DNA of 64,000 bases from an uncultured Gammaproteobacteria bacterium (lineage in GTDB: Bacteria; Pseudomonadota; Gammaproteobacteria; Eutrophobiales; Eutrophobiaceae). The stretch covers positions 248,001 through 312,000 of the forward strand of contig CALSRS010000001.1 of assembly GCA_943788815.1 (NCBI GenBank). The letters run 5' to 3'. A model generated the notes under the pieces. The model saw nothing but the letters and a program-made list of their open reading frames with translations, was not told where the DNA came from and did not search any database. How positions within the stretch are numbered: the stretch's first letter is position 1; each line of letters starts with the position of its first letter. Positions 9,793 through 19,264 of the stretch are shown piece after piece. Position numbers and translations under genes: made by a program.

Positions 9793-9833
9793 AAAAAACG
9801 GGCAGGTATTCATAATCCCTGCCCGTTTTTTTT
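9793..9833 (+). terminator. Intrinsic terminator after the DUF1552 gene
   Basis: CGGGCAGG (9799-9806) pairs with CCTGCCCG (9818-9825), flanked by A6 on the left and T8 on the right. It ends the plus-strand transcript. Because of the A-run it could also work weakly for minus-strand transcripts, but the minus-strand operon ends at 9900, before reaching it. Confidence 0.9.
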
Positions 9834-9899
9834 ATATGTCTTTATGAATCTCGTTTATGTGTATTGGGCATTTAATTTATATGAAATACCACCAAATAA

Positions 9900-12626
9900 T
9901 TATTTTGACTGCTCAACCATATCGGCTAAACGTTTACCCAGTATGTAACTTATATTGAAATTAAGCTTGGCCACGATATTGGGAAAGTATTTAAGATCTT
10001 TTTGTAATCTCTCATAATCAAATTTTAATGCCGTTAAGTCTGTTTTCGCACGAACATCAGCCGTTCGGTTCGTCTCACGAATATAGCCAATTTCACCAAA
10101 AATCTGACCACACCCCAAGGTTGCCAGCACTGTGGACTGTCCATCGTCTCGGCGGATCACATCTGCTTCTCCACTTAATATTAAAAACATACTGCGTCCC
10201 GTAGTGTCCTGTTCAATCAATAATTCATCTGACTTAAACTCATGCAATTCTGAAATCAATATTGCCTTTCTTCGCTGGTAGTCTGTCATATTATGAAACA
10301 GAGTACAGTTCTCCAGGGAGTCTTCATCCAAAGACATCGTTAGTATTTGGTATAAGCCCACCAGCCTGATTTTTGACATAAGTATGGGGGTAATCATTAA
10401 ATTTGTCAGTATCGATAACAGGATGGTTGCGGTTATTAAGGCCCCAAACTGTGCAACAACAGTAAATTCTGACAGGGTCAAAATACTAAACCCAACACAA
10501 AGAGAGATGGTTGAAATTATCATAGGGGGACCAACTTCACTTACTGCGGCATTGACTGCCCCTATATAATCAGATGACCTTCGGCAATGCTCAATATAAC
10601 GTGTTAACAAGTGAATTGTCCCATCAACTGCCAATGCAATTGCGATGACAGCCACCATGGCCGTTCCTGGATTAAGAGGAATGTTAAGCAGACCCATGAC
10701 ACCAAACATAATACCTACTGGCAGTACAGCTGGGATTAATGCGATTAAGCCACCTTTATATGATGTAAATAAAACAGAAACAATGACAAAGATCAGGACA
10801 ACCAGGACGATAAAACTATTCACCTGAGCACGCTTTAAATTTTCAGCTGCCTGGTGGACCATTAGATTTTTTCCAACCACATTGGACACGAGCTCAGCCC
10901 CTGCAAATTGGCTAACCACACCTTCAAGTTCTTCTATATAATCATTTAATACACGCGAATCATTTATATTATGTCTAACAATAATGTTTGCACGACTAAA
11001 ATCCTGGCTCACATAGTTTTCCAGTTCCGAACGATGAAATAGCACCAAATATTGCGCGACCAATTGTCTTGAACGAGGTAAAGCTAAACCAGGTTGTTCA
11101 CCTTGCATTTCATTGTGAACATATTTGAGTAAATCAGCCAATGAACGGCTATGATCAAACACACCCTGCTCTGCAACAAAATCCTGTATTAAAGCCAGCT
11201 TTTCTATATTTCTTGGCTCAAGAAATGCCTTTTCTGTATTTGACTCAAGGGTAATAAAAAAAGTATGGGCACCTGATAATTCCTCATGCATCCTGTCATG
11301 GTCCTGCATGAGTGACTGATTATCTGAAAAATATAATAAGGGATCGTTGGTCACATAAAAGGTTGAGGCATGATAAAAGAAAAAACCACTACACAAAAAT
11401 GACAGAAACAAGATTAAGCCTGGGGATTTGGTTTGTGTATGACTAAACAACAAGATGAATTTACCTGGATAACTACCCTCGTCGTCCTTAATATTATTCC
11501 TGGCACTTGCCCCTCGATGGTAGATTGCCAATAAGCCCGGTATTAGTAATACAGAAATGATTCCATGTATGACCATTGCAAATGTAGAAGCAATAGCGAA
11601 ATTTCTAATTATACTAATTTCATTTAGCATATTACTGGCAAAAGCAATGGTAATTATTAAAACTGTTAACAGAAATGACATCCCGGACTTTCTTGCAATT
11701 TTCCGCATTGCTTCTTCATGTGACATATCCTGGTGCTTTTTCAATCTTCGAAGATAGCTAATGATAAGATGCATCGTAGTAAAGGCTGACACGATAATAA
11801 TTAACAAAGGTAAGATAGTACTTAATATATTTATCGGCAGCCCAAGCCAACCTTGTAATCCGAATGTACAGATAATGGCAGTAATTGAGGTTATTATGGG
11901 TATGGCCGCTGCAAGCAGGCTTCGAACGAAGATTAATATCAATACTAATACTAATAAAGCTGACAATGGCCCAAGTAAAATAAAGTCGTTAGCCAGTTGT
12001 GTTTTCAGCTCATAGATTAATCTTGGTGAGCCTACCTGAATCAAACTTTGAAAATTACCGCGCACATTGTCTAATTGTGATTCGATATCCAGATATATCT
12101 GTTCTCTGATATCTTGAGTAGCAAACTCATCTTCCAGTGCTAACACCATAGTCGTGATACGACCGTGTTCAGCGAAATATGAATCAATAAACAGCTGGTT
12201 AGTTAAAATGGAATTTCTCAGCGACACAATATCCAGTTCATCTTCGATATCCCGATTCATAACCAGACCGGAATCAAGTTCATTGTTGATGCGCTTTAAT
12301 GTCCTGAGTGTAAACATACTGGACACTGCATTTACACCATTGATGCCTTCTAGTGCTGCATGAAGCTCATTAATTATGCGTAATTTATCATGCGACCAAA
12401 TGTCATCATCTTCGATAAAAATATAGACATTGTCATCTGTTCCAAATTCTTCAAGCACTCGCCTGTAGGCGAGTCTATCGGGGTCACTAGACGCTATAAG
12501 GCTATCTAATCCTGTATCAACTGTAAGCTTGGGAATTCCAGATGCCAGCAATAAACTTACCGCTATAATGCCCAACCAGGTTACCTGGCGGAATCGTATA
12601 CCTATTAGGAAAAGGTCTTGCAGCAT
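9900..12626 (-). CDS. RND/MMPL-family permease with C-terminal cyclic-nucleotide-binding domain
   Basis: This 908-residue inner-membrane protein has the duplicated RND/MMPL layout: a TM helix at the N-terminus, a periplasmic loop, a block of about six TM helices (residues about 215-380), a second TM helix and loop, then a second TM block (about 590-740). The tail (about 765-900) is a CRP-like cyclic-nucleotide-binding domain, with FGE at 843-845 and RTA at 854-856 in the phosphate-binding cassette. This suggests cytoplasmic ligand control of transport. The start overlaps the LolA-like gene stop in TAATG. Related permeases paired with LolA-like proteins are linked to hydrophobic or lipid cargo; the substrate here is unknown. 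Confidence 0.88.
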   Translation of the reverse strand: MLQDLFLIGIRFRQVTWLGIIAVSLLLASGIPKLTVDTGLDSLIASSDPDRLAYRRVLEEFGTDDNVYIFIEDDDIWSHDKLRIINELHAALEGINGVNAVSSMFTLRTLKRINNELDSGLVMNRDIEDELDIVSLRNSILTNQLFIDSYFAEHGRITTMVLALEDEFATQDIREQIYLDIESQLDNVRGNFQSLIQVGSPRLIYELKTQLANDFILLGPLSALLVLVLILIFVRSLLAAAIPIITSITAIICTFGLQGWLGLPINILSTILPLLIIIVSAFTTMHLIISYLRRLKKHQDMSHEEAMRKIARKSGMSFLLTVLIITIAFASNMLNEISIIRNFAIASTFAMVIHGIISVLLIPGLLAIYHRGASARNNIKDDEGSYPGKFILLFSHTQTKSPGLILFLSFLCSGFFFYHASTFYVTNDPLLYFSDNQSLMQDHDRMHEELSGAHTFFITLESNTEKAFLEPRNIEKLALIQDFVAEQGVFDHSRSLADLLKYVHNEMQGEQPGLALPRSRQLVAQYLVLFHRSELENYVSQDFSRANIIVRHNINDSRVLNDYIEELEGVVSQFAGAELVSNVVGKNLMVHQAAENLKRAQVNSFIVLVVLIFVIVSVLFTSYKGGLIALIPAVLPVGIMFGVMGLLNIPLNPGTAMVAVIAIALAVDGTIHLLTRYIEHCRRSSDYIGAVNAAVSEVGPPMIISTISLCVGFSILTLSEFTVVAQFGALITATILLSILTNLMITPILMSKIRLVGLYQILTMSLDEDSLENCTLFHNMTDYQRRKAILISELHEFKSDELLIEQDTTGRSMFLILSGEADVIRRDDGQSTVLATLGCGQIFGEIGYIRETNRTADVRAKTDLTALKFDYERLQKDLKYFPNIVAKLNFNISYILGKRLADMVEQSK

Positions 12627-13546
12627 TACTGAGATCCTCTTGCTTGATTGATCACAAACGAATTATCAATCTTGTTAATGCTGGCATCTATAAGTTCTGA
12701 TTCAAGTTGCTCTTCTTGCGAAGGACTCAGATCCAGTGGAGGTTTATTTTCATAAAGCCAGTTTGCCGTAAATACATCTTCAGATACCAAATTATTGGAC
12801 ACCACTCTTTTGTTAATTTTTATCAGTGTACTGTGAAGTCTGGTCCTGTCCGTCATGTGCAGCATGGCTGCATTCCAGTTTTTCAGTGCATTTTTGCTTA
12901 AGTCATGCATAGACAACTGTTTCATGACTTTGCCTTTGTTATCATAATAATTAGTTTGGGTAATAAAGTGGCCATCTTGTCTGACCTGATGTGTCTTCAG
13001 GGGCGAGGTATTTACTGGATCGTCATCTTTTTCATAGACATCAATCAGAAAATACGTCACATCACCAATTTTACGATCAGCCCTGCGTACATATTGGTAT
13101 TGCAAATCAAACAGATTACTAATCTGGCTAAGAGTGAAGTCCATTCCAAACAAGCCTTCATTATCATTCCACAAACTTTGGTGTTTTAATAATTCTCCGT
13201 TTGCGGGTAAATAAATGTACACACTGGGAATGGCCTGTGCTGTTTGTTCCACCAGGATTGCAACACCTTCATATTCATCAGGCTCATCAAATACCAGCAA
13301 AAACTTTACCATTCCGTTATCAGAAATCCGGGCAAATTTCCTGAGTTGTCTTGTATCACGATTACCTGCATGGTCTGTTAGAATTACAGAAATTTCTTCG
13401 TAAATATATTTTTCTACTTTCAGGTTTTGTTGAACTGAAGACATAATGGCTTCAGCTGTTAAATCATCAACATTCTGCGCAATACCAGCCTTCATCCCTG
13501 CAAAGCAAAGAAACACGATTGTGAAGCTGATAATTTTTATATTCAT
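12626..13546 (-). CDS. LolA-like outer membrane lipoprotein-sorting family protein
   Basis: This 306-residue protein has a signal peptide (about residues 1-23, ending IAQN) and matches the LolA-like family often encoded beside RND/MMPL permeases: FLLVFDEPDEYEGVAILV, VYIYLPANGELLKH, EGLFGMDFTLSQISNL and the C-terminal YYDNKGKVMKQL region. The fold is a half-barrel that carries lipid or lipoprotein through the periplasm. It sits between pqiC (TAA directly followed by its ATG) and the RND permease (TAATG overlap), so it probably hands cargo to or from these partners. It is not the housekeeping LolA. Confidence 0.85.
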   Translation of the reverse strand: MNIKIISFTIVFLCFAGMKAGIAQNVDDLTAEAIMSSVQQNLKVEKYIYEEISVILTDHAGNRDTRQLRKFARISDNGMVKFLLVFDEPDEYEGVAILVEQTAQAIPSVYIYLPANGELLKHQSLWNDNEGLFGMDFTLSQISNLFDLQYQYVRRADRKIGDVTYFLIDVYEKDDDPVNTSPLKTHQVRQDGHFITQTNYYDNKGKVMKQLSMHDLSKNALKNWNAAMLHMTDRTRLHSTLIKINKRVVSNNLVSEDVFTANWLYENKPPLDLSPSQEEQLESELIDASINKIDNSFVINQARGSQ

Positions 13547-14149
13547 TTATCTGGTAGATATACTTACAGCTATTAAACGACCCAGTTCACCATATAAATC
13601 CTTCATCGATCTAACAATATTCTCATAATCATCCATGGCATAAATCCCGCTACTCATCAATTCGGTATTATGAGTAGATACGGCCCTCTGCTCTTGGTTA
13701 TCCAGAATTTGCCACCTGGCAACTAGTTTCACATAACCATTATAGTCCCGCTCAAATTGTTCTATATGGATCTGCAATCTGTAATCAGCTTTAGAGAGCG
13801 TTCTATTTATTGGCGTACCAATATCATTGGTTCCAAGTAGGTCTGACAAATTTTGCGCCATTGTTCTCAACAGATTCTTACGGAAATTATCTCCCCATTG
13901 ATTATTGTCAGAAAAAAATATCTGATTTTCATCCCCTCTACTGACAATATTAAATCGTTCCATATACTGCGGTATATGGACATCCATGATTTCGACCACA
14001 AGATTTGGGTCATCGGCAACAGGGGAAATCGATTCAACAGCATCCACCATATAATAACGAATCGAAGTCCCTCCCCCGCCACAAGCAAATAATATAAAAA
14101 GAGAGGCTATACTTAGCACAAAACTTTTAAAATATTTTTTTCTATCCAT
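13547..14149 (-). CDS. pqiC: PqiC-type ABC transport auxiliary lipoprotein
   Basis: This 200-residue lipoprotein has an N-terminal hydrophobic stretch and a lipobox ending FAC at Cys23, followed by a Gly linker. The body resembles the PqiC/DUF330 family: IRYYMVDAVE, VEIMDVHIPQYMERFNIVSR, the NNQWGDNFRKNLLRTMAQNL segment and DYRLQIHIEQFERD. PqiC is the outer-membrane partner of the PqiB tunnel in intermembrane lipid transport. The start overlaps the pqiB stop in TAATG. The length is close to E. coli PqiC. Confidence 0.85.
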   Translation of the reverse strand: MDRKKYFKSFVLSIASLFILFACGGGGTSIRYYMVDAVESISPVADDPNLVVEIMDVHIPQYMERFNIVSRGDENQIFFSDNNQWGDNFRKNLLRTMAQNLSDLLGTNDIGTPINRTLSKADYRLQIHIEQFERDYNGYVKLVARWQILDNQEQRAVSTHNTELMSSGIYAMDDYENIVRSMKDLYGELGRLIAVSISTR

Positions 14150-15798
14150 TACTCATCTCCATCGCCTTCTCTTCCAAATAGCAAAGACTGAGGATTCCTC
14201 TCGAGGATCTCTACTAATGCCCTTATTGACCGTGCAGTTTCTTCTAATTCACTGGTTAATTGAATGACGTTGTATTGCATGGGTGAATTTGGCTCGAGGA
14301 TGTTATTTGTTAAATCCAGTGTTTCACGAAGTTTTTCCAGCACATCTCGACCAGCACCGATGGTATCATCAAGGCTGGCTTCATCAACCGCAGCCAGAAT
14401 ATTTTTAAATGACTCCATAGAGGTTTCGAGATTATCCAGGGATGCTTGTATTGCTGGGGAATTAAACAAAGAATTGGTTCCTTCGAGTGTGCCAAGTAGC
14501 TCCCTGCCTATATCTTCCAGATTTATTGTATCTAAACGAGAAACAAAGGCCTCGAGTGAATTGGTAATGGATTCAATACTGGCAGATGAGACGGTGGGCA
14601 TCTCTGGGACAGTTTCGTTTGCTGCGACCAGTTCCAGTGGGGCATCTGGATTCATTATCAGTTCAACATAAAGTTGTCCTGTAATTAAACTCCCTGACTG
14701 TAATCTGGCACGTAGACCCTTATCTATCAGGTTGGTAATGGTATCCTCTGATTCACTAATTCCATCTATGTCTCGAAAAACTATACGTTCTGGTTCAATT
14801 TCGAATAAGACAGGGATTAAGAAACTTTCATCTTCATTATCATACTCCAGCCTGAAATCCAGCACGGAACCAACCTGTATTCCTCGAAATTCAACCGGTG
14901 CGCCTGGACTGAGTCCCCGAACTGAGCTGCCAAAATAAGCCACGTAATTTATCTTCTTGGTATACGCATTATTATCAATATCCCCGTAACCGTTATGTAG
15001 TGTATAGACCAAGCCCTGTATATCAGATGTTGATTCCTCAAGGGTTTCGGAGCTATCAAATGCAATACCCCCAAAAATCAGGCTCTTGACTGATTCTGTC
15101 CTGACATTGACACCGTTGGCAGAGAGATCAACTTCCATCCCACTGACATTCCAGAAACGGGTGTTACCCTGCACTATCTGGTCAAAGGGGTCATTAATAA
15201 ATATATGTATGTAGACACTTTCCCTGTCATTCGCCAATTCGTAAGCCAACACTTCGCCCGCCTGTATTCCTTTGTAATAAACCGGCGACCCGACATCTAT
15301 CGAACCGAGTTTATCTGCGATTAGCACAACCTGTTGCCCTAAGGTCTCAGATAAAACCACAGGAGGCGTTTCCAGTCCTACAAAGTGAAATTGTGGCGCA
15401 CCCTGGCCTGGTTCAACTGAAATATAGGCACCAGATATTATGGTTTCCAATCCTGAAATACCACTGAGACTAAATTGAGGACGTACAACCCAAAACTGGG
15501 TGTTACGCCTTAGAAATGAATCCATTCCCTGATTAAACCGCGCTGAAAGTATGACGTGAGAGAAATCTTCACTGAACTGCATGCCTTCAATAACGCCGAT
15601 ATTCACATTTTTATATTTTATCCGTGTCATACCAACTTCTATTCCATCGGCTGTCAGAAAACTGATAGTGGCAACTGAACCTTGTTCTGATAAGGTTTTG
15701 ACAATTAGCCAACCACCTACCAGGGCTGTAATGATGGGTATGACCCATACCATGGAAATACCTGAACGGTGCTCTATTTTAGGTGATGCGACTTCCAT
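14149..15798 (-). CDS. pqiB: PqiB intermembrane MCE transport protein
   Basis: PqiB forms a hexameric tunnel of stacked MCE rings bridging the inner and outer membranes for lipid transport. The 549-residue length equals that of E. coli PqiB (about 546). A single TM helix spans about residues 14-36 (MVWVIPIITALVGGWLIV). Three MCE domains follow at about 40-130, 160-240 and 285-380; repeated hallmarks include VGMTRIKYKNVNIG, VGSPVYYKGIQAGEV and PGAPVEFRGIQVGSV. A long C-terminal helical part (about 430-530) matches the PqiB needle. The start overlaps the pqiA stop in TAATG. Confidence 0.93.
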   Translation of the reverse strand: MEVASPKIEHRSGISMVWVIPIITALVGGWLIVKTLSEQGSVATISFLTADGIEVGMTRIKYKNVNIGVIEGMQFSEDFSHVILSARFNQGMDSFLRRNTQFWVVRPQFSLSGISGLETIISGAYISVEPGQGAPQFHFVGLETPPVVLSETLGQQVVLIADKLGSIDVGSPVYYKGIQAGEVLAYELANDRESVYIHIFINDPFDQIVQGNTRFWNVSGMEVDLSANGVNVRTESVKSLIFGGIAFDSSETLEESTSDIQGLVYTLHNGYGDIDNNAYTKKINYVAYFGSSVRGLSPGAPVEFRGIQVGSVLDFRLEYDNEDESFLIPVLFEIEPERIVFRDIDGISESEDTITNLIDKGLRARLQSGSLITGQLYVELIMNPDAPLELVAANETVPEMPTVSSASIESITNSLEAFVSRLDTINLEDIGRELLGTLEGTNSLFNSPAIQASLDNLETSMESFKNILAAVDEASLDDTIGAGRDVLEKLRETLDLTNNILEPNSPMQYNVIQLTSELEETARSIRALVEILERNPQSLLFGREGDGDE

Positions 15799-16517
15799 TA
15801 TTCAATTACCTTATCATTATCGTCCAGCTTAGCATTATCCCAGATTAATCTTGGGTCAAAACTATGGGCAGCAAACATAGTAACGACCACAACACCTGCA
15901 AAAAAAGAGGCACCTATTCCTGGCCGTATGGTTGATAGAACATCCAGACTAACCAAAGCCGACAGTATACCAACAAGGAATATATCCACCATAGACCATG
16001 CGCCCACTGTTTCTGTAATTCGATAAAGAACTGTTCTGTCTTTGGGGCGCCATTTTGACCCGCGTTGAACCGACACGAGTAAAAAGGCAAGAACAATGAG
16101 TTTCATAACAGGAATCACAACACTTGCTACGAATACGATCATGGCAAGTCCCCACATGCCACCTTCAATTAAATGCAATACCCCACTTATAATCGTACTG
16201 GGCTCACCCTGGCCAAACCGAATAACAGTCATTACCGGATAAAGGTTGGCGGGGATAATCAGGATAGTTGCTGTCATTAGCAGTGCCCAGGTACGCGTAA
16301 TGCTATCTGACTTTCGATGATGAATCGGAGATGAACATCGTGCACACTCATCCACTCCTGCTTTCGCACTGGTCAATAAACCACATGTGTGGCAATTCAT
16401 CAAAGATTTAGGGTCAGAGATATCAGGTGGCTGATAATCAAAATGTTCCCAGATTGACTCTGGAATCAAAATTAGCACGGGCAGCAGCAAAGGCAACCAA
16501 TAATCCGACCAATGCAT
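15798..16517 (-). CDS. pqiA: PqiA C-terminal half, out of frame with the N-terminal half
   Basis: PqiA is the polytopic inner-membrane component of the Pqi system, built from two zinc-ribbon plus four-helix modules. This frame holds the second module: zinc ribbon CHTCG...CARC, then four TM helices ending SFDPRLIW. The first about 22 residues of the open frame do not resemble the family, but SIWEHFDYQPPDIS just after them fits the linker that follows the FDSR of the preceding frame. Removing one base near 16465 would join the two. As it stands, this half could be made from ATG 16517 or from the internal ATG at 16400 just before the zinc ribbon. Confidence 0.75.
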   Translation of the reverse strand: MHWSDYWLPLLLPVLILIPESIWEHFDYQPPDISDPKSLMNCHTCGLLTSAKAGVDECARCSSPIHHRKSDSITRTWALLMTATILIIPANLYPVMTVIRFGQGEPSTIISGVLHLIEGGMWGLAMIVFVASVVIPVMKLIVLAFLLVSVQRGSKWRPKDRTVLYRITETVGAWSMVDIFLVGILSALVSLDVLSTIRPGIGASFFAGVVVVTMFAAHSFDPRLIWDNAKLDDNDKVIE

Positions 16518-16929
16518 ACAGTGAAAAACCGGTTATAACATTAGCAAGGTCTTGCAATTTCACTATGGATATCAAGACCCCCAGCATAAAAACACTGATC
16601 AGGCTCCAGGGGTTAATTGCTTCAATCAAGCGGTAAATAGGACCCATTGCTGGCGGAACAATTCCAAATCGAAGTGGTATTAATAAATAAAGCATGCAGA
16701 TAATAGTAATAAAAGGAAATCCGATGCTAGTAAAAAAGATAATTATGCCCAGATCCGGCATTCCCATTTGATACATTGCCAAGCCACTGGACAATAAAAT
16801 ATTTTCTTCCACTCTGCCGCCCAGCTCCAGGGACAAAAATGGAAAAGCATTTGCCATAATGAATAGCATTAAAGCCGTACTATATAGTGCTATACCACGG
16901 TCAAGACTGTTTTTTATATGCAGATACAA
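16438..16929 (-). CDS. pqiA: PqiA first membrane module, frameshifted on both sides
   Basis: This frame holds four TM helices of the first PqiA module (IALYSTALMLFIMANAFPFL, the YQMGMPDLGIIIFFTSIGFP region, and EAINPWSLISVFMLGVLISIVKL). It has no ATG at its start, only TTG at 16929, and lacks the expected zinc ribbon, which is encoded in another frame just upstream (16901-17032). It stops at NLGTF, where the next frame continues. Correcting one base in the A6 run at 16911-16916 and one near 16465 gives a 410-residue protein, close to E. coli PqiA (417). This is either a recent double-frameshift pseudogene or an error in the sequence. Confidence 0.7.
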   Translation of the reverse strand: MYLHIKNSLDRGIALYSTALMLFIMANAFPFLSLELGGRVEENILLSSGLAMYQMGMPDLGIIIFFTSIGFPFITIICMLYLLIPLRFGIVPPAMGPIYRLIEAINPWSLISVFMLGVLISIVKLQDLANVITGFSLYALVGLLVAFAAARANFDSRVNLGTF

Positions 16930-17032
16930 AAGTGAGGCCGCACCGTGTGCAACTAGCCTTACCTGATGTCTCTATCGGCTGGTAGTGATATAACTGGTCA
17001 CATTCGTGACAGGCTATAATCTTCCCCTTCAT
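16901..17032 (-). pseudogene. pqiA: PqiA N-terminal zinc ribbon fragment
   Basis: This short reading frame of 43 codons starts with ATG at 17032 and encodes MKGKIIACHECDQLY, then ASCTRCGLTFVSAYKK. The CxxC...CxxC pattern is the zinc ribbon expected at the start of PqiA. The frame is lost at an A6 run (16911-16916), where dropping one A continues into the first membrane module as YKNSLDRGIALY. It is the true start of the pqi operon and is preceded by a good sigma-70 promoter. Confidence 0.72.
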
Positions 17033-17066
17033 CTTCAATGACACAACAGAATCTTGATTTTTTGTC

Positions 17067-17094
17067 GTTATAGTTATGCTATCCCCAGTGTCAA
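17067..17094 (-). promoter_or_regulatory. Sigma-70 promoter of the pqi operon
   Basis: On the minus strand TTGACA (17094-17089) and TATAAC (17072-17067) are separated by 16 bp. The -35 is a perfect consensus. The predicted transcript start lies about 25-30 bp before the pqiA ATG at 17032, giving the pqi operon its own promoter separate from the exporter gene upstream. Confidence 0.7.
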
Positions 17095-17253
17095 ATTCTG
17101 CCCGCCTGGAAAGGAAAAGCCAAGTGCTTTAATCCGTAATATTCCAAAATTTAGCTTGTAACAGGTATTTTTTATGCCGGGGACTGTTTTCGAGTGATGT
17201 TAAATAGCCATATGCCGCCTATGATCAGGAACAAACCAAGATAGTGGTACCAA

Positions 17254-18054
17254 CTAATAATTTTCACCAATGAAGATATAGGCCAAAATCGCAGTGAGTA
17301 TGGGTACAAGATTTAGGAACAAGCCAGCATGATTAGCACCAACCAGTTCAATACCACGGTTCCAGCACATATACGAAACCACAGAAGGAAATATAGCGAT
17401 GACGATTAATCCTGTAATGACTTGTTGATTTAACTGGATATATTCCCCCTGAACAAGCTCATATAAAAATAGTGGCAAAGACGTTAACGCCCCCAGGATG
17501 ATTAATACAGCAAGTAAACTTAATGGATGAATGTCTGGTTTTTTATGAAGCAGCACAGGGTATAAAGCACCACAAAATACGCCCAGCAGCATCCATAAAT
17601 CCCCAACAACAAACTCCAATGTTGTCACAGAAGAAATATTGCCCCTAAAAATGACCACTACAACCCCCATAAAACAGATTGCCATGCCTATTACCTGCGG
17701 CCGACTCAGTGAAACGTTCAATATCAAGTGTGAAAATAGTGCGATGGTGACGGGGAAAATGCTCGATATCAGTCCCACATTTACAGCCGAAGTGGTCTGT
17801 AGCGCAATATATAACAGGCAATTGAATGCACAAATACCAGTTGCCGCTATTAATAATAATCTAGGCCACCACTGAATGGCTTTTTGCCAGTCAGATCTAA
17901 GATGGGGCCAGGCAATGGGCAAAATAATCAAGGAGGCTAAAAACCAGCGCGCAAAGGTGAAACTTAGTGGCGGGACAAATTCAATGATCCCTTTTGCAAC
18001 TACGTTATGACCAGACCAGAATAATACGGCAAAGAATAACAACAATACTGGCAT
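17254..18054 (-). CDS. EamA/DMT-family transporter, C-terminus frameshifted
   Basis: This frame encodes 266 residues of a ten-helix drug/metabolite transporter with two EamA repeats (about 5-135 and 150-266); examples are FWSGHNVVAKGIIEFVPP, FTFARW and AYIFIGEN. It stops just after GEN-Y, before the last TM helix. The missing helix is intact in another frame: WYHYLGLFLIIGGIWLFNIT, ending at a TAA at 17172-17174. Removing one base from the ATTATTAG stretch near 17254 would give a normal 293-residue protein. The cargo (metabolite or drug export) cannot be predicted. Confidence 0.85.
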   Translation of the reverse strand: MPVLLLFFAVLFWSGHNVVAKGIIEFVPPLSFTFARWFLASLIILPIAWPHLRSDWQKAIQWWPRLLLIAATGICAFNCLLYIALQTTSAVNVGLISSIFPVTIALFSHLILNVSLSRPQVIGMAICFMGVVVVIFRGNISSVTTLEFVVGDLWMLLGVFCGALYPVLLHKKPDIHPLSLLAVLIILGALTSLPLFLYELVQGEYIQLNQQVITGLIVIAIFPSVVSYMCWNRGIELVGANHAGLFLNLVPILTAILAYIFIGENY

Positions 18055-18178: not shown

Positions 18179-19264
18179 TTAATTATTTTTATAAGTCGAT
18201 TTTTGCTCAGTAAGCTGTGTGTGCAATACTTTTAAGTCACTAACGAATTTGGCCTGTAAATCTAGCGGTAAGGAAATTGACTTCATGCCGGCTTTCAAAC
18301 GATAAATCAAGCCTGGAAATTGCCAGATTTGCTGCAACCTGGATTCCTTGTTATCCGTCAAGGCTGAGAATTTAATTAAATCATCCACCACCTGGATTGC
18401 TCTTTCCCATTCAATACTTTTCATACTGTATTTTTCAAAGATATCTACCAGCAATACACACCAGTAATCCATTAAGAATGCTTCAATAAATTCCGGCAAA
18501 TCTCTATCTTTTATACGTTGTATGATGGTGTTATGCACCCAACAACCAACAAGGAATGAATTGCAATAAAGTGACTCTTCCTTAAATGACCAGAAATTAC
18601 CGAATTCATCAATGTCATTATTAATGCCCATTTCAGAATCCGAATGCTGCAAAAAGAAATCAAGAAGTTTATTCAGATCATCATATATAGAAATAAGATC
18701 AGTTGAAATTTGTCGATCAAACATCTGAAGCATGATCAATTTAATTTCCTTCCCACATCGCAAATCATCAAATGATTCCCAAAATGCATTATAAATTGTT
18801 TCTGGCTGAAGAGGATTCACAAAATTTTCGACATGAATATCATCGAGTATGTAATTCACATGTCTGTCCAGACCGACCAGCGCCTGTCTGCATTCACTCC
18901 GAATGTTGCCTACGGGCTCATGCAAGACACTAATTTTATTAATACTTATGCTTGCTTCAGAATTACTTGTAATTAATTCATTGCTCTCATCACTATCGCT
19001 TTGCACCGCTAATTGCCGAAGTATCTCCAAGTATATCCCTGACAAGCGATTTTCAAATCTTACTTGAATCTCCCTTTTTTTAAGGCGCAATTCTCTTACT
19101 GCATCAATGTAATAAGCACTATCAGTATCACATTGATCCCTGGATGCCATCTCAAACAAGACATGCTCCAGGTTTCCCATCATTACGGATAATGACGCAT
19201 GCAGTCTGCTTGTCATTATTTCGCGACAATCATTTAATAATATTTCAGGTTCAGCGATAGACAT
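18179..19264 (-). CDS. DUF1631-like protein, short form
   Basis: This 361-residue, largely helical, soluble protein resembles DUF1631. The N-terminal part has the family's LEHVLFEMASRDQ...YYIDAVRELRLKKREIQ...FE pattern, and the C-terminal part matches the RLQQIWQFPGLIYRLKAGMKSI region followed by LHTQL. Typical DUF1631 proteins are about twice as long, so this is a short or reduced version that ends before the usual C-terminal domain. The function is unknown. It is divergent from the sigma-54-driven small gene at 19557. Confidence 0.55.
   Translation of the reverse strand: MSIAEPEILLNDCREIMTSRLHASLSVMMGNLEHVLFEMASRDQCDTDSAYYIDAVRELRLKKREIQVRFENRLSGIYLEILRQLAVQSDSDESNELITSNSEASISINKISVLHEPVGNIRSECRQALVGLDRHVNYILDDIHVENFVNPLQPETIYNAFWESFDDLRCGKEIKLIMLQMFDRQISTDLISIYDDLNKLLDFFLQHSDSEMGINNDIDEFGNFWSFKEESLYCNSFLVGCWVHNTIIQRIKDRDLPEFIEAFLMDYWCVLLVDIFEKYSMKSIEWERAIQVVDDLIKFSALTDNKESRLQQIWQFPGLIYRLKAGMKSISLPLDLQAKFVSDLKVLHTQLTEQKSTYKNN

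Follow-up and report, generated by a model that had tools for sequence, protein, structure and literature searches.

A conserved five-gene unit uniting PqiABC with a LolA-like protein and an RND permease that carries a cyclic-nucleotide-binding domain

PqiABC bridges the membranes, and its energy source is an open question: transport could be passive, or could draw on an unidentified ATPase or on the proton gradient (PMC10897342). Separately, a LolA-like protein, an RND permease, and a LolB-like protein have been proposed to export aryl polyene lipids (PMC8253772). We report here on a locus in which relatives of proteins from both systems are encoded side by side. It lies in a 64,000-nucleotide stretch of contig CALSRS010000001.1 (GenBank assembly GCA_943788815.1, positions 248,001 to 312,000), which belongs to an uncultured gammaproteobacterium of the family Eutrophobiaceae; the whole of this stretch is called the window below. 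All of the parts are members of known families, previously known only as separate lipid-transport modules, and no description of the five-gene combination was found in the open-access literature, a search to which subscription papers and preprints were mostly external. The locus comprises the following.

15798-17032, minus strand: pqiA, two zinc ribbons and two PqiA domains, spread over three reading frames in this assembly (PF04403 twice, both halves)
14149-15798, minus strand: PqiB, 549 amino acids (aa), three MCE domains (three MlaD/MCE stretches by Pfam)
13547-14149, minus strand: PqiC-type outer-membrane lipoprotein, 200 aa (PF03886, ABC_trans_aux, 4.3e-27)
12626-13546, minus strand: LolA-like periplasmic protein, 306 aa, N-terminal signal sequence (PF17131, 9.8e-20)
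9900-12626, minus strand: RND (MMPL/HAE3-type) permease, 908 aa, C-terminal cyclic-nucleotide-binding domain at about residues 795-876 (Pfam MMPL 1.7e-27, cNMP_binding 6.9e-18)
About 9798-9836, no strand assigned: stem-loop, flanked by runs of T on both strands (folding energy -23.1 kcal/mol; z -6.7 relative to shuffled sequence)

It seems very probable that the five genes form one functional unit, because they are strictly co-inherited, because their PqiB proteins fall in a single clade, and because all five remain clustered even in a Magnetococcales locus (L118) in which they have been rearranged. Genomes scanned with five aligned RND orthologues as the query yielded 80 loci, and all loci were scored by profiles of the five components. 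In fifty-one (two of them duplicates), each component is present at nearly its full length and in one frame. A script found all genes on one strand and in the expected order for 50 of these; in the last, L109, the deviation is an artefact of open reading frame (ORF) extension, and the matches themselves run in order. Among related loci with enough sequence upstream of the RND gene, 49 of 54 carry all five genes in the order pqiA-pqiB-pqiC-lolA-RND, the exceptions being L118, a fragmentary, multi-frame copy (L139), a locus with LolA and RND alone (L102), and two loci at which Pqi genes are not nearby (L115 and L116). Carriers include Gammaproteobacteria, Zetaproteobacteria, Desulfobacterota, Nitrospinota, and others, along with one Planctomycetota and one Verrucomicrobiota metagenome-assembled genome, single genomes of unexpected phyla for which mis-binning is possible; one carrier, Mariprofundus sp. 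EBB-1, is a pure culture. The initial annotation held that an order unique to this genome would make a shared machine unlikely, and the occurrence of the order at 49 loci in several phyla removes that objection. Within the window's own order, the RND protein is present in 17 of 53 genomes, including two of the four other genomes of the same genus, and the unit is therefore accessory.

A tree of concatenated PqiABC and a tree of LolA plus RND have 36 of 47 splits in common, against a mean of 0.2 and a maximum of 3 after label shuffling, and pairwise distances in the two sets are correlated (r = 0.875), both measures including a contribution from shared species history. Copies from Nitrospinota nest inside a gammaproteobacterial group in both trees, which argues that the block was transferred whole. 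PqiB-like proteins, surveyed in one class only as a source of control loci, occur in 37 of 252 sampled genomes. The five with at least 50% identity in PqiB have the five-gene form; at all 18 examined loci with 32-43% identity, PqiABC stands without this LolA/RND pair, and at control locus L177 a distant RND is encoded on the opposite strand. The five-gene proteins lie on one side of a single branch of the PqiB tree, with a support of 84 when L118 is included and 100 when it is left out. Given the control loci that lack the pair and the single PqiB clade, the five-gene form is a distinct sub-branch of PqiABC, to which LolA and RND were probably added once.

Pfam matches and a reading of the ORFs place pqiA, pqiB, pqiC, the lolA-like gene (PF17131), and the RND gene (MMPL plus cNMP) in transcription order on the minus strand between 9900 and 17032. 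The sequence shows TAATG at the pqiA/pqiB, pqiB/pqiC, and lolA/RND junctions and TAA directly abutting ATG at pqiC/lolA, so that the families, strand, order, and junctions given in the initial annotation are all borne out. Two further details of that description were not upheld: its upstream end, at 17094, lies beyond the ATG at 17032 where pqiA likely starts, and the "one clear promoter" did not appear when 16900-17350, upstream of pqiA, was scanned for the sigma-70 consensus. Median gaps between the genes across relatives are -1, -1, +4, and -4 from pqiA to RND, and such small gaps and overlaps suggest translational coupling, a point in favor of one unit. At the downstream end, the stem-loop at about 9798-9836 is probably a bidirectional terminator that closes both the five-gene operon and the convergent gene; a terminator consensus scan missed it because its loop exceeds 8. 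No sixth conserved gene emerged among the flanking ORFs, whose larger clusters can be put down to synteny that related strains share or to common families; no cluster is general. Nor does any lipid-synthesis gene recur beside the five-gene unit, and thus no particular lipid is indicated.

Turning to the individual proteins, PqiB is of PqiB type, but by the NCBI threshold it does not count as an equivalog of its E. coli namesake: it scores 435.6 bits (2.7e-130) against NF008070, below the cut-off of 525. PqiC has a cysteine after a hydrophobic N-terminal stretch (LFAC), and a lipobox-like motif is present in most relatives; its score against the NCBI pqiC exception model is 39.5, below the cut-off of 200. 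The PqiB proteins of Nitrospinota (L121:3073-5169 and L122:6311-8491) are about 700-730 aa long, compared with 549 here, and contain an insertion or extension.

The LolA-like protein is a member of PF17131 (71.4 bits, threshold 30). Its AlphaFold model (pLDDT 87.3), compared by VIA-align, gives Z scores of 26.5 to P. gingivalis LolA3 (9tp6), 25.4 to 3bk5, and 24.9 to a DUF1329 protein, with true LolA and LolB further off (Z 13.2 to P. aeruginosa LolA). As modeled, the protein has the LolA fold with a lipid-binding half-barrel and is a LolA3/DUF1329-type carrier. By tblastn at 1e-3, none of the five proteins finds a match in the region of the genome's second PF17131 hit (L052). The common LolA/RND pairs of the class (L038-L051) mostly run from RND to LolA, opposite to the order in the five-gene unit, and their RNDs are only about 23% identical. 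Two further loci (L123:9093-14111 and L137:8837-14124) encode a LolA-like protein and an RND-cNMP protein without PqiABC, followed by a probably secreted protein of about 450 aa that has no Pfam match and is possibly an alternative outer-membrane partner.

The RND permease has two MMPL halves and an RND fold, by Pfam and by its model. The nearest NCBI model is TIGR00921, HAE3 (3.5e-55, under its cut-off); scores of 64.9 bits against TIGR03480 (cut-off 751.85) and 20.9 bits against NF045600 (cut-off 1400) place the protein far from HpnN and BstA. The best Foldseek matches of the AlphaFold model (pLDDT 84.9) are MmpL5, MmpL4, MmpL3, NPC1, NPC1L1, and Patched, but in VIA-align AcrB-type pumps tie with the MmpL/NPC1-type matches, so that the fold alone leaves the substrate class unfixed. 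The joining of such a permease to a cyclic-nucleotide domain would itself be unusual. The nucleotide pocket of this domain (G844, E845, R854, and A856) is identical in all 78 aligned RNDs, as part of a phosphate-binding cassette of the form G-E and R-(T/S)-A in which the T/S is found in 72 of the 78, and the genome encodes five class III cyclases. Asp668 and His672 of transmembrane helix 10 (TM10) are invariant, and TM4 reads STEDTH or a close variant in nearly all relatives. Elsewhere, a clade of RND-cNMP proteins with 31-34% identity (L124, L126, L128, L130-L134, and L136) has no LolA or Pqi neighbours and sometimes adjoins genes apparently of the homogentisate pathway or other catabolic genes.

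How might the five proteins work together? From their co-inheritance and from published analogues, we see about an even chance that the RND and LolA-like proteins make up a lipid-extracting arm, proton-driven and nucleotide-gated, that is coupled to the PqiABC tunnel. The permease would use the proton gradient to pull lipid from the outer leaflet of the inner membrane and would load it onto the LolA-like carrier, which would shield it in the periplasm; PqiA in the inner membrane, the MCE-ring tunnel of PqiB, and PqiC, docking at the outer membrane, would then form the path by which it reaches the outer membrane. The pump would be switched on or off, and its rate set, by cAMP or cGMP bound at the cytoplasmic C-terminal domain of the RND. 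The RND would thereby act as a source of energy, which is not known for PqiABC by itself. If this mechanism holds, transport outwards is the direction we would lean toward. That the whole amounts to a phylum-crossing trans-envelope machine, in which an MCE tunnel is powered through a LolA-like carrier by a proton-driven RND and gated by a cytoplasmic cyclic nucleotide, we offer only tentatively; were it true, second-messenger signalling would be tied directly to outer-membrane lipid supply. A widespread form of Pqi that is nearly always accompanied by a proton-pump-type permease, a lipid carrier, and a nucleotide sensor provides concrete candidates for how bridges of the PqiABC and LetAB type are energised, and it does so in a genetically testable system that includes a pure culture.

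Several findings weigh against so close a coupling. LolA and RND of the same clade occur without PqiABC in L102, as do more distant ones in L123 and L137, and still other, likewise more distant RND-cNMP proteins have neither LolA nor Pqi genes beside them, all of which implies that the RND arm can work without PqiABC. The pqiA gene is broken in this assembly, and an acidic pair in TM4 has been lost in the window's genus, where the energy coupling of the RND may consequently differ. One could picture two separate lipid routes behind one promoter, with PqiABC acting as a passive bridge and LolA plus RND as a shuttle for the same or an opposing flux, the two being co-regulated and not physically joined. 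Each module does exist alone elsewhere, as the 18 PqiABC loci without the pair and the many LolA/RND pairs without Pqi attest, but the fixed five-gene order across phyla, the congruent trees, and the overlapping genes suggest stoichiometric coupling, and we regard separate routes as possible while doubting them. The "one envelope machine" of the initial annotation survives in part: the widespread order, the co-inheritance, the single PqiB clade, and the clustering in L118 support a functional unit; assembly into a single physical complex, transport in both directions, and a special lipid stand as proposals.

The state of pqiA and of TM4 also raises the question of decay in this genome, with pqiA a true pseudogene and an RND that, having lost the TM4 acidic pair, no longer pumps. 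There are indeed two frameshifts in this gene, and the genome has no other PqiA locus. A single PqiA model is matched piecewise in three frames (15798-16517, 16438-16929, and, upstream, zinc ribbon 1 from ATG 17032), with one extra base near 16456-16459 and another near 16928-16931. In relatives, however, the two PqiA domains are contained in one intact protein, and an alignment with four relatives, two from the genus and two from the family, shows neither extra base in any of them. The gene was thus correctly assigned in its family and position, although it is not the single intact gene that the claimed operon supposed; the break is private to this assembly, and the prospect of genes broken in close relatives did not materialise. 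The EamA transporter gene that adjoins pqiA (17254-18054, continuing downstream to about 17190) has a single-base insertion near its 3' end, at about 17261-17264, beyond which its C-terminus proper runs on in another frame; it is intact in the two same-genus relatives compared there. Three single-base insertions within 0.9 kb strike two unrelated genes, both of them open in relatives, as a local sequence error would give, and such an error is probably a better explanation than real decay. By Pfam, none of ten other window ORFs has a family split over two frames. The unit in the window is probably functional despite the split pqiA frame. Many canonical Pqi loci have a naturally split PqiA, but there zinc ribbon 1 stays on the N-terminal half, unlike in the window. 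PqiA is mostly encoded as two separate half-genes in the distant PqiABC loci of the class (L160-L175) and is fused in the five-gene loci. A further neighbor, at 18179-19264 of the window, encodes a 361-aa DUF1631 protein whose match is mainly to the first 200 or so of the profile's 741 positions; this copy is short or truncated.

As to the RND, the STEDTH motif of TM4 has become SAFTTMH in the window and in an 80%-identical relative, and AATGNIQ in another genome of the genus, which is a point for an inactive pump. Yet the change is old and shared while the genes stay open. Against the 80%-identical relative, the five-gene components show low nonsynonymous divergence (dN), the only usable measure because synonymous divergence (dS) is saturated in that comparison, and the LolA plus RND branch leading to these two genomes is long. 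Open genes, low dN, and a long branch suggest a function that has been altered rather than lost in this genus, and we consider decay unlikely. The three genomes of one genus (the window, L152, and L153) in which the TM4 motif is lost and the TM10 Asp is kept offer a natural experiment on whether a single half-site of the proton relay is enough.

An envelope-defence role, with the RND expelling membrane-damaging amphiphiles that the LolA-like protein binds while PqiABC repairs or seals the outer membrane, would fit the RND's best NCBI match (the hydrophobe/amphiphile efflux model HAE3, below cut-off) and the impaired growth of an E. coli pqiABC deletion with the detergent LSB (PMC10897342), but it is improbable given that the conserved unit has no adaptor or TolC-type channel gene and that lipid and sterol RNDs are closest among the Foldseek matches.

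The reading of the five genes as one functional unit can be set against the systems described so far. E. coli PqiABC, like LetAB/YebST, has the same two-domain zinc-ribbon PqiA, three-MCE PqiB, and PqiC lipoprotein, in the order pqiA-pqiB-pqiC; the clade of the window is a five-gene form and not a pqiABC-only operon, adding a coupled LolA-like protein and RND-cNMP permease, and its PqiB forms a distinct clade, whereas no pump partner is known for the system of E. coli. The chimeric Mla-Pqi system of Brucella, Mpc, likewise places a PqiC-like lipoprotein in a recombined MCE system, but it is built on an Mla ABC core and not on PqiA and PqiB with RND and LolA (PMC12436622).

On the side of the RND arm, the aryl polyene exporter ApeL-ApeM-ApeN (and flexirubin LolA2/LolB2) has the same pairing of a LolA-like carrier with an RND permease (ApeL and ApeM), which are proposed to bring a product resembling a lipid to the outer membrane (PMC8253772). 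It differs in having a LolB-like outer-membrane partner (ApeN), in lying within a biosynthetic cluster, and in lacking PqiABC; the unit of the window has no recurring biosynthetic neighbours. Classical LolA is a LolCDE-dependent lipoprotein carrier, while the genomic partner of the LolA-like protein here is the RND and not LolCDE. The RND shares its fold over residues 1-754 with MmpL, HpnN, BstA, and NPC1, from which it is set apart by its C-terminal cyclic-nucleotide-binding domain and by scores far below the HpnN and BstA cut-offs. In TOL_3187 of Thalassolituus oleivorans, which is 42-fold up on C28 alkane, MMPL and LolA-like domains are combined as they are in the window's pair; there they make up one fused protein, and no Pqi genes are described with it (PMC6304351).

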